From a virus, in IMG/VR virus record IMGVR_UViG_3300029813_000134, positions 1 through 41,947 of that record: a stretch of 41,947 nucleotides of DNA; one strand, written 5' to 3'. Made by a program: the position numbers and the translations under genes. The notes beneath the pieces are model-generated. The model had not been told where the DNA came from. It worked only from the letters and a program-made list of their open reading frames with translations, and made no database searches. Each line of letters starts with the position of its first letter. Within the stretch, counting starts at the first letter, position 1. Below are positions 25,148 to 37,028 of the stretch, in pieces.

Positions 25148-25780
25148 TTATTTTCCCTCATCAAAAAGCTTTCCATGCGTTAAAACTCTCTCCGCCGTGA
25201 GAATATCCTTCAGCCGATTTCTGATATTTCTTATGCCCGGAGTGTCAGCTGCTTCGTCGTTAATTATTTTTTCTACCAGCCTCGCCATCATCCAGGCGTC
25301 TGCTTCGTCCGTTGAATCGAATCGCCGATCATGATAGCGCTGCACCTTGTCCAGATATATCATCTGCTGCGCCTTGGTAGATTTCTTCAGCCGGATGTTT
25401 CCCTTGCCGAGCATATCGGATTTCCAGGTCAAAGGCGCCACTTCGATAATAGGTATCTCACAATCCCCTAGAATCCCTCGGACAATCCCGCCGACTTCAG
25501 CCTGGGCAGTTATCGACTTTGAATTCTTACTGAAAGCGTAGCCCTCGATTATCCCCACATCAATATTATATTTACCACTCAGTCGATTTATCAGAATAGC
25601 CATGTCGTTATATATCTGCGCCAATACTTTTAATCTGGATATTTTACTGTGATATTCATATCGCTTGGATTTCTCTTCATCCCCAATTTTAATGTAAATA
25701 CCGATTTTTCGAAGACTAGGATCGAAGGCAATCAAATTTATTTTTCTATCTCTGCTATGACTTGTAAAATGGGAAGACAT
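25148..25780 (-). CDS. RuvC-like Holliday junction resolvase
   Basis: 210 aa. LIAFDPSLRKIGIYIKI carries the first Asp (D20). VGIIEGYAFSKNSKSITAQA holds the Glu and the typical SK...A..VGGIVRGIL helix. IIEVAPLTWKSDMLGKG and STDEADAWMMARL provide the late acidic cluster. This is the RuvC/RNase H-fold order. Phage members resolve branched recombination and replication intermediates. It overlaps the methyltransferase end by 43 bases, so the first 10 or so residues may be extra. Confidence 0.88.
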   Translation of the reverse strand: MSSHFTSHSRDRKINLIAFDPSLRKIGIYIKIGDEEKSKRYEYHSKISRLKVLAQIYNDMAILINRLSGKYNIDVGIIEGYAFSKNSKSITAQAEVGGIVRGILGDCEIPIIEVAPLTWKSDMLGKGNIRLKKSTKAQQMIYLDKVQRYHDRRFDSTDEADAWMMARLVEKIINDEAADTPGIRNIRNRLKDILTAERVLTHGKLFDEGK

Positions 25781-26549
25781 TGCGCCGGCACTACTGCATT
25801 GCCTGTAAGGCGTGCCACTGTGCAGTGACCAAGGCCTTCAAGCCAGTGATCAGGGAATCCGGCAAAGCGTGTCCGTTCGAGTGAATCGAGAACCCGCATT
25901 TTTCCTTCGTACACGAAACCGTCACTGGAATTGCATGTTTTGTGTCTCGTAGTAAGACAGTGAATAGAAAATGCCTTTCGATGCTTCGTCTTACTAATCT
26001 CCGGATTGCTTTGTCGTTCAAGTATGTCCATGATCCCACTTCTCCCGGCTTCTGAAGGACAGCCGATAACGAACTCCCTGATCCGCCATTGACCTGTATG
26101 CGCCACGGCATTCGTTGTAACAATAACCGTTCGGTATCCAAGCACGTCCAGCCCGGTCTCAAAGTCGATAACATCTGGTGCAGGAACATTTTCGCGGAGA
26201 ACCCACCTGGGCCGCATTCTCCCGACCACGACAAGGAAGTATCCGGACAAATCGGCATGTTTAGTCGGTCTATTGCCTCTCGCTCGTGATCTGATAGGGC
26301 ATGGGTCGCCTCCCGAAACAAGGGTAACTGTCTCATTTGTAATTTCGCCCTCCGATAATCTCTGAATCAATTCCTGTACAGTTTTGATACGTTGCACATT
26401 CGGCCATTCTCTTTCCAGTATTTTGATGCAAGCCTTATCCGGTTCCACCTGGAGGATCGTTTTGAATCCAGCTTTTTCCGCTGAAATATCCATACCTCCC
26501 ATTGAATGCCTGAGAATAAACTTATGTGTTTTAATTCTCTTTGTGGCAT
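25738..26549 (-). pseudogene. DNA cytosine-5 methyltransferase, frame split at motif I
   Basis: Two frames make one protein. From the ATG at 26549 (SD AAGGAGGT, 7-base spacing) the frame gives ELKHISLFSGI, the start of SAM-binding motif I. The continuation GGMDISAEKAGFKTILQVEP lies in another frame from 26502. Catalytic motif IV is SGGDPCPIRSRARGNRP, with the PC dipeptide, and ENVPAPDVIDFETGL follows. A five-base excess (CAATG) between LFSGI and GGMD explains the shift. Either the gene is broken, phase-variable, or frameshifted by design. It would protect phage DNA from host restriction. Confidence 0.82.
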
Positions 26550-26556
26550 TTACATC

Positions 26557-26639
26557 ACCTCCTTAATAAAAAGCGGGTGGTAAAAATCCTGTCGCTTAAA
26601 GGAGGTAAAAAAAATACAACAAGTAAAACCCACCCACTT
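26557..26639 (-). promoter_or_regulatory. Methyltransferase leader with anti-Shine-Dalgarno loop
   Basis: AAGTG GGTGG (26639-26630) pairs with CCACC CGCTT (26580-26571), and a U-run follows. In the 49-nt loop ACCTCCTT (26606-26599) is complementary to the downstream SD AAGGAGGT (26564-26557), with G-U and A-U extension to 10 bp. This can form an H-type pseudoknot that hides the ribosome site. The stem begins right at the stop of the upstream gene. Confidence 0.65.
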
Positions 26640-28786: not shown

Positions 28787-29293
28787 TTATTGTATTCCTG
28801 ATGAATGCCATCCCATTTCATTTATAACTAAAGCAGTATCCTTTTCTGGATATAATAGAAATACTGCGATACCGTCAGCTATTTTTTCTGGTAAATAGAA
28901 AGTTTTTATTGTCTGTTCTTCTTTATATTCAAATTTCTTACTATCATTAAGTCTCCGCAAATAACGAATGCTGAAAGCCCAGGCTTTTTTTAATGTCCCC
29001 TGGATATATAGCCATGTATTGTCACTTCGATAAATACCACTTTTTACCCATAGTCGATCTATTGCCGTTCTTTCCTCAATTTCTATTGAAAGACGATGAG
29101 ATTTCGGACACCAACTATTAAATTTAAATTCTACACCCTGTATGCTTTCTCCAACTTTAAATTGATAATGTTCTGAAATAAAAGGTAATATGAGCAATCC
29201 CTTGCGATAACAAGCCCAGCAGCAATAATCCATGAATTTTTGTCCTGCTTTTATAGATTCTTTATTTTTACTATTTGGATATCTCGTTTCCAC
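28787..29293 (-). CDS. Uncharacterised protein, possible PD-(D/E)XK-like fold
   Basis: 168 aa. IQGVEFKFNSWCPKSHRLSI, then EIEERTAIDRLWVKSGIYRS and NTWLYIQGTLKKAWAFSIRY. The IEIEE...SGIYR.DNTWLY pattern is one I recall from small nuclease-like phage and mobile-element proteins, but the catalytic set is not certain. It overlaps the adenine methyltransferase by 23 bases. It might be a partner nuclease or a modification accessory. Confidence 0.55.
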   Translation of the reverse strand: METRYPNSKNKESIKAGQKFMDYCCWACYRKGLLILPFISEHYQFKVGESIQGVEFKFNSWCPKSHRLSIEIEERTAIDRLWVKSGIYRSDNTWLYIQGTLKKAWAFSIRYLRRLNDSKKFEYKEEQTIKTFYLPEKIADGIAVFLLYPEKDTALVINEMGWHSSGIQ

Positions 29294-30254
29294 AGATACT
29301 CCACCTTTCCGATAATTTTGATTTATTACCCCTGAAAAACATTTCCAGTGCTTTGCCTTTTGGATATATTGTATCTATTATTTTTCTCATATATTCAGGC
29401 TTAGCAGAATGTTTTTCTCTTTCAATCGAAAAAACATTATCAAACAATTGTTTATTATCTAATGGACATGATCCTTTAATACCTAAAAGTACTAATTCAC
29501 TTCGGACAGAACTATAATGGCCCATAACATGCTTAACTTTATCCCAGCACCAACCGGTTTTATATTTGAATCCCCATGCCTTAATTATCTTGAAGCTTTC
29601 CTCCAGTATGGGCCATGTTACCCATAGAAACAGCACGGCATTTTCTTGTATATGTTCTTTCACTTTTATTTGACATATTTGATCAATAGTCATTAATGGG
29701 TATTCTCCACCCTGTTCCGTGAATTTATCTGGCATAACATTTCCATATTTCCAGGGGGGGTCGGCGTAAATGATTCGATACATTCCTTCTATCTCTGGAA
29801 TTATAACTTCAGCTTTTTCTCTCGCCTTTATCTCCCGATATACTCTATTCCAGGAAACAACATTTTTATCCTTACGTTCCTTCTCCTCAATTTCTTTTAT
29901 AATTTCAGGATGTTTGAATATCGTTTGAGCATAATGAGATTTCTTTTTAGTAATGCCAGGAGGTAAGATACTTTTGCTTCCGATCGTTCTTCCAGTAGAA
30001 CTATCGGTAATCGGTATTTTTTGATTTGGTGCCAACATTTCACCCATTGCAGCCATAGCATCAATCATGATTTCTGCTTTAGTTTGAGTATCAGCTAATC
30101 TTTTAAGAAAGTTTTCGCTTTCACCTTCTGTTTTTTTAATAGCCCGAAGCAGAGCTTCATGTGCCCTTACCTCTTCTTGACCTACTGTGATAAATTTATC
30201 TAATTCTTCTATTGTCTGAGGTAATGTTTTGCCCCGCTTGATAAGATCGTTCGT
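29271..30254 (-). CDS. MT-A70 family adenine DNA methyltransferase
   Basis: About 327 aa if started at the ACG at 30254, five bases after GGAGG; the first ATG is much later, at 30068. The catalytic DPPW is in MYRIIYADPPWKYGNVMPDK. VLFLWVTWPILEESFKIIKA, HYSSVRSELVLLGIKGSCPL and KPEYMRKIIDTIYPKGKALE are the usual MT-A70 blocks. An N-terminal helical region (VGQEEVRAHEALLRAIKKTE) lies in front. The protein would methylate N6 of adenine, probably against host restriction. It is controlled by leader L3. Confidence 0.88.
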   Translation of the reverse strand, partial: TNDLIKRGKTLPQTIEELDKFITVGQEEVRAHEALLRAIKKTEGESENFLKRLADTQTKAEIMIDAMAAMGEMLAPNQKIPITDSSTGRTIGSKSILPPGITKKKSHYAQTIFKHPEIIKEIEEKERKDKNVVSWNRVYREIKAREKAEVIIPEIEGMYRIIYADPPWKYGNVMPDKFTEQGGEYPLMTIDQICQIKVKEHIQENAVLFLWVTWPILEESFKIIKAWGFKYKTGWCWDKVKHVMGHYSSVRSELVLLGIKGSCPLDNKQLFDNVFSIEREKHSAKPEYMRKIIDTIYPKGKALEMFFRGNKSKLSERWSICGNEISK

Positions 30255-36401: not shown

Positions 36402-37028
36402 TTATGTTTGCCATGTTTTATTATTTACTACATGGCTTATATTACTTCGATTCACACCATATATTCTTGCTAATTTTTCCTGCGATACACCACTCTCCAT
36501 ATATAATTTTCTTATCTCTTCGGCTTTTTCAAATGTCAATTTTGCACTTGATGCATTTCTCATATTTATTATATATGTTGTCCAGTGACAATTTTCTTTA
36601 AAATAATCTTTATCATTATCTATTCTATCAATCTCGGCTTCGGGAAATGGTCTCGGGCCCATATCAGCATAAAAAGATATGAAACTATTTTTCCAATGAT
36701 CGCATATTATAATGCCTCGACCGCCATAGCGATAATAGAATGCATGTTTTTTATTATAACAACGTTCTTTCATTTGTTGCCATGTTTTATATTCTGGAGT
36801 TCCGCACATACCGTGTTTTTCTATTTCTGTATGGAGAGGATCACCATATTTCATATATTTTCGATAATGCCTCCTGCAATAACCTTTAGCTTCATATTTA
36901 TTTTCACAACCAGGAATAATACAAATTCTTATATTTCCTCCAAAGAAAAAACCCCGCCATTCAGCATGGTATCCCGCGAAGGCACTGAATTTTGGGGTTT
37001 TTAATTTCTTTATTTTGCAGGATACCAT
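36402..37028 (-). CDS. HNH homing endonuclease with C-terminal HTH; start unclear
   Basis: 208 aa if started at the ATG at the predicted RNA 5' end, or about 178 aa if started after GGAGG at a non-ATG codon near 36933. N-terminal Zn-like CIIPGCENKYEAKGYCRRHY, then TPEYKTWQQMKERCYN, YGGRGIIICDHW and the HNH core AEIDRIDNDKDYFKENCHW. The C-terminal HTH is SQEKLARIYGVNRSNISHVV. AT-rich. It is controlled by leader L1. The gene probably entered as a mobile element. Confidence 0.85.
   Translation of the reverse strand: MVSCKIKKLKTPKFSAFAGYHAEWRGFFFGGNIRICIIPGCENKYEAKGYCRRHYRKYMKYGDPLHTEIEKHGMCGTPEYKTWQQMKERCYNKKHAFYYRYGGRGIIICDHWKNSFISFYADMGPRPFPEAEIDRIDNDKDYFKENCHWTTYIINMRNASSAKLTFEKAEEIRKLYMESGVSQEKLARIYGVNRSNISHVVNNKTWQT
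36946..37028 (-). promoter_or_regulatory. Attenuator-like leader L1 (HNH gene)
   Basis: RNA from A37028 begins ATGGTATCC, which pairs with GGATACCAT in the loop (36974-36966). Outer stem AAAAACCCC/GGGGTTTTT, inner ATTCAG/CTGAAT, then six U and GGAGG. The 5' ATG opens a frame continuous with the HNH gene across the hairpin. Confidence 0.78.

Follow-up and report, generated by a model that had tools for sequence, protein, structure and literature searches.

Phage C5-methyltransferases split within SAM motif I form a conserved, undescribed family whose interruptions are probably hopped over by ribosomes

How can a phage make a cytosine methyltransferase if the SAM-binding motif of its gene is distributed over two reading frames? 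This question is raised by an IMG/VR record of 41,947 bases, which was analyzed in its entirety and is referred to as the window. An initial annotation had described a methyltransferase frame split in SAM motif I by five extra bases, CAATG, and direct reading of the minus strand confirmed this. The upstream frame opens with MPQRELKHISLFSGI at the ATG at 26549 and comprises 60 amino acids up to a stop at 26367 (minus strand). The second part, GGMDISAEKAGF..., is read from GGAGGTATGGAT... in a different frame from the ATG part and stays open to 25738, the codons ATT and GGA being kept apart by five bases (26504–26500). The elements of the split gene are as follows:

26558–26564, minus strand: Shine-Dalgarno sequence AAGGAGG of the upstream frame (read directly)
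26505–26549, minus strand: first coding part, ATG...HISLFSGI, from the start to the take-off codon ATT at 26507–26505 (read directly)
26500–26504, minus strand: five-base interruption CAATG, consisting of the gap CA and the landing triplet ATG (read directly)
25738–26499, minus strand: second coding part, GGMDIS..., C5 cytosine methyltransferase (PF00145 profile match, 1.9e-16)
26367–26504, minus strand: run-on of the upstream frame without a jump, QWEVWIF..., ending with the stop at 26369–26367 (translation)

The methyltransferase also matched PHROG families 363 and 116. The catalytic motifs of C5-methyltransferases (PC, ENV, QxRxR, and GN) are present in the window gene; the second part carries motif IV (GGDPCP), ENV, QWRIRE, and GNAVVP, and the catalytic PC and the other downstream motifs are intact, as originally stated. 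SAM motif I (FxGxGG) is not contained in one frame, being broken at 26500–26504; in homologues, LFSGIGG is continuous in one frame. The closest relative, from a Spirochaetales MAG (L039), is 71% identical and unsplit.

A single-protein scan of IMG/VR with the window methyltransferase yielded no close relatives, and two relatives by terminase (L002 and L003) had no detectable methyltransferase match. A scan with an ORF nested in the methyltransferase gene brought in a 47 kb record (L012) that is split at the same codon, reading GGC ATT CTATC GGA GG compared to GGC ATT CAATG GGA GG in the window. A pattern scan allowing any five-base insert at this place then revealed more than 20 further split methyltransferases. 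This codon is the split site in at least 22 phage C5-methyltransferases, with five extra bases in 21 loci and four (TAGC) in L152. In 20 of the 22 loci, an in-frame stop is the first codon of the insert, where the window has CAA; inserts following LFSGI include TGACC, TAGTT, TAGTC, TGATG, TGACT, TGATC, TAACC, TAACT, and TAAGC. The take-off codon is ATT in 20/22 and ATC in 2/22 split loci and never ATA, compared to 16/70 ATT and 22/70 ATA at this position in unsplit relatives, and the FSGI codons of split loci are biased to TTC-TCN-GGC-ATT. Of 80 relatives sampled independently by profile, 72 were unsplit, seven were split, and one was cut by a contig end. The junction pattern produced only chance matches in about 700 prokaryote genomes from two phyla, and all annotated phages and plasmids that we inspected were unsplit. 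No description of methyltransferase elements of this kind was found in the searchable open-licence literature. The split in the window is one member of a conserved, undescribed family of phage methyltransferase interruptions, which ribosomes probably hop over.

The gene start is present twice in eight split loci (L046, L049, L050, L053, L057, L063, L068, and L152), and in L049, L053, and L057 the upstream copy stops exactly at SGI. Between the two copies lies an HNH endonuclease gene in L049, L050 (on the opposite strand), L063, L068, and L152, and only a short interval in L046, L053, and L057, which we regard as shortened cassettes; L046 and L057 retain an apparent HNH C-terminal tail. HNH genes are also present in L047, L162, and L166, and the cassette HNH proteins that were tested matched phrog_8446 or HNH_3. 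The upstream copy was not found in 14 of the 22 loci, including L012 and the window (5 kb scanned). Beside the window site, neither an HNH gene nor an HNH tail nor a duplicated gene start was detected in the scanned 5 kb of 15 kb upstream.

The junction is preceded by an inverted repeat, the arms of which are located as follows:

26535–26550, minus strand: 5' arm of the hairpin in two pieces (26550–26545 and 26539–26535), overlapping the start codon (covarying in 22 loci)
26505–26516, minus strand: 3' arm of the hairpin, formed by the FSGI codons TTCTCAGGCATT and ending at the junction (pairing)

In the window, 26545–26550 pairs with 26505–26510 and 26535–26539 with 26512–26516. A covarying hairpin ending at the split is present in all 22 loci, among them the window, the FSGI codons pairing with an upstream arm, often AUGCCNGAGAA, across the start codon. 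The 60 nt before the junction had a mean z of −3.54 in the 22 split loci versus −0.38 in 70 unsplit genes, and the last 12 nt paired at −13.5 compared to −6.9 kcal/mol (p = 4e-10). The arms covary at synonymous positions: the Ser wobble base is found in every Watson-Crick combination (AT10/TA3/CG3/GC3), and the Gly and Phe wobble positions likewise change in step with the partner arm. The window hairpin is weaker (z = −2.3), and an alternative fold, in which ATGCC pairs with 26492–26496, forms when more of the downstream exon is included. The nine-base palindrome CATT-C-AATG noted earlier is present, but is minor beside the larger inverted repeat; we therefore dropped CATTCAATG as a meaningful element in favor of the larger hairpin. 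The fold-back template switch initially proposed for the palindrome could have made the hairpin arms. Since the arms covary across diverse phages, selection is implied rather than a single mutation event. The hairpin may also serve another role, e.g., masking of the start codon.

A second insertion point lies in catalytic motif IV (GFP^CQ), where L047 and L057 are also interrupted, P being separated from C. A scan revealed the same interruption in L162, L164, and L166, again with a hairpin, and in L162 and L166 also with an HNH gene. Take-off codon, gap, and landing triplet at motif IV read CCG-TGAG-CCG, CCG-TGAA-CTG, CCA-TGAC-TCA, CCA-TGAA-TCA, and CCT-CGATGA-CCT. Jumps of 4, 5, 7, and 9 bases would be needed across the two insertion points, and each rejoins the conserved motif exactly. 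At 17/17 distinct sites, the landing triplet agrees with the take-off codon at two or more of its three positions if tRNA-Ile wobble is counted; the window, with ATT and ATG, agrees at two. Against a null of random inserts that keep the stop, and with scoring choices made after the data had been seen, 26/36 positions matched at motif I versus 17.3 expected (p = 0.0002 with tRNA-Ile wobble, p = 0.07 without) and 12/15 at motif IV versus 3.7 expected (p = 3e-5). A stop in the A site, a hairpin behind the take-off codon, and matching landing triplets together fit short ribosome bypassing.

We consider it fairly probable that the window methyltransferase carries the remnant of a mobile HNH cassette and that ribosomes hop over the micro-insert, as in T4 mobA/gene 60. 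The cassette would lie between the SGI and GG codons of SAM motif I (SGI^GG). With its 3' end, it would provide the gene start anew, frequently along with a ribosome-binding site, as well as the hairpin and a micro-insert consisting of a stop and one or two bases. The ribosome would stall with peptidyl-tRNA-Ile on ATT; the hairpin, refolding behind it, would pull the mRNA; and the tRNA would re-pair five bases further on, so that translation could resume at GGA and yield a predicted protein with the exact motif LFSGI-GGMD. The insert may furthermore shield the site from the HNH nuclease. For the family as a whole, it seems reasonably likely that HNH cassettes repeatedly invade motifs I and IV and are tolerated by a hairpin-driven hop over a stop-containing insert of 4–9 bases.

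The most serious alternative, which we regard as unlikely, is that the HNH cassette destroys the methyltransferase and that split copies are short-lived pseudogenes, whose frames the overlapping nested gene helps to keep open. Consistent with this, most relatives are unsplit, and splits are scattered over a tree of 112 methyltransferases, mostly on single tips. The split state needs 13 changes on this tree, at least five of which are forced by supported branches. However, one clade of eight rows (support 99) is entirely split. In this old clade, dN/dS of the downstream half is about 0.1–0.2 at dS of 0.7–2.3, one near-identical pair excepted, and the upstream nine codons show 4–7 synonymous versus 0–1 non-synonymous changes in most pairs (1 versus 1 in two pairs). 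Judged from these substitutions, both halves look to be under strong protein-level constraint, and because this purifying selection acts in an all-split clade, both look useful as protein while split. The covariation of the hairpin, the matching landing triplets, and the exact rejoining of a motif by inserts at two different sites also argue against decay. The initial suggestion of a recently broken gene does not hold for the family, but may still apply to the window copy. There, the lack of a stop, the lack of a visible HNH gene or duplicate nearby, the unsplit nearest relative, and the weak hairpin count against bypassing; since the A-site codon is CAA and not a stop, the jump may be inefficient, the copy working weakly, or the copy may be a decaying remnant. 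That it still yields the joined protein is, by a slight preference, our prediction.

The nested gene that this alternative invokes is itself represented in the window:

25791–26336, minus strand: 181-codon ORF nested in the methyltransferase, MRQLPLF...GFSAKMFLHQML... (conserved in relatives)

It lies in the +1 frame relative to the methyltransferase, which is the frame of the upstream ATG, and is 38–51% identical in eight viral contigs, L011–L016 and L039 being among the relatives. In the window, none of 5000 codon shuffles that preserved the methyltransferase protein left it open; by its sequence it looks like a real dual-coded gene. In L012 (2773–3576), the upstream ATG frame (HISLFSGI) runs stop-free into the nested ORF as one frame of 267 amino acids, and one start could serve both products.

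Recoding was the best of the three options offered initially (a recent break, phase variation, or frameshifting), though in the form of short bypassing instead of a frameshift. Programmed ribosomal frameshifting by −1 or +1 appears very improbable at the junction: a five-base insert does amount to −1/+2 in frame terms and an A-site stop favors shifting, but no slippery heptamer was seen there, and a plain shift would place extra residues in the FSGxGG loop, which is invariant, or separate P from C by them. As jumps of different lengths need unlike net shifts and yet restore the exact motif, a single frameshift is excluded. Readthrough of the stop was also considered and rejected, as it does not restore the frame for 4-, 5-, and 7-base inserts. 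Phase variation was discarded as well, the directly read junction containing no simple repeat tract. Still less credible is RNA splicing, with the duplicated upstream gene start as 5' exon and everything up to GG as intron. The upstream copies ending exactly at SGI would suit such an arrangement, but an Rfam search gave no match to a group I or II intron core, intervening lengths go down to about 94 nt, and most loci, the window included, have no detected upstream copy. Least probable of all is an assembly or sequencing error, which the origin of the window from a single metagenomic record might suggest, but which is contradicted by homologous inserts in independent contigs and by a window hairpin that matches theirs.

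Short bypassing as favored here has a known counterpart. In T4 gene 60, UAG comes after the take-off codon GGA and a 5' stem-loop serves as motor; the insert adjoins an HNH gene and may guard its site against cleavage (PMC5009743, PMC3014915, PMC11194080). The family shares with T4 mobA/gene 60 the putative mobile cassette, the HNH linkage seen in several loci, and, in 20/22 motif I loci, the stop after the take-off codon. It differs in that the gap between codons is 1–6 nt compared to 47 in T4, the target is motif I or IV of a C5-methyltransferase, the cassette re-supplies the gene start, and the landing triplet frequently agrees at just two of its three bases. Furthermore, T4 needs a nascent-peptide signal, and no T4-like nascent peptide is recognizable here. 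As the window lacks both the stop after the take-off codon and an HNH gene at the insertion, and has a far shorter gap, it would work like T4 gene 60 without being a strict member of that type. The byps of Magnusiomyces capitatus mitochondria are likewise short non-coding blocks that are hopped, with two-of-three landing matches allowed (PMC5009743); they differ in being mitochondrial and reportedly context-independent, and no covarying hairpin or adjacent HNH gene is described there. Synthetic stop-hops, as outlined in the review citing them (PMC5009743), similarly make the ribosome skip a stop and a few bases between matched codons, but are laboratory constructs and not natural conserved elements.

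Natural bypassing in bacteria and phages essentially comprises one proven case, T4 gene 60, and a Streptomyces phage candidate, and shorter counterparts are expected (PMC5009743). If our reading is true, natural micro-bypass elements would form a broader class to which T4 gene 60 belongs. The candidate sites, which number more than 25 and come from diverse phages, combine tiny gaps and near-cognate landing codons with a covarying hairpin, and they fall on two different insertion points. They would offer a comparative test of take-off and landing requirements and suggest how selfish endonucleases can occupy active-site codons. Gene callers would misread such genes as pseudogenes.

Some further observations concern other genes. 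The only HNH endonuclease recognized in the window, which carries an HTH (36402–37028, minus strand), lies 10 kb from the split; its best PHROG matches are 3377 and 374, those of the cassette HNHs 8446 and 2340. The window also encodes a second methyltransferase of the MT-A70 type (29271–30068, minus strand). In L058 (7050–7900) and L073 (3426–4300), the C-terminal half of the methyltransferase (WVEWMMNFPIGWTD followed by LKCLGNAVVPQQ) is encoded after motif VIII in the +1 frame. It resembles the nested 'DNA methyltransferase' ORFs that other phages carry (phrog_1008), and overlapping frames possibly provide alternative target-recognition domains in this way. In L017 (3001–3393), catalytic motif IV is missing owing to a deletion that preserves the frame, and the nested ORF is still open. 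Finally, L014 and L015 carry a diverged SAM motif, LFTGSGMF, near 2820, and their catalytic motifs are intact.
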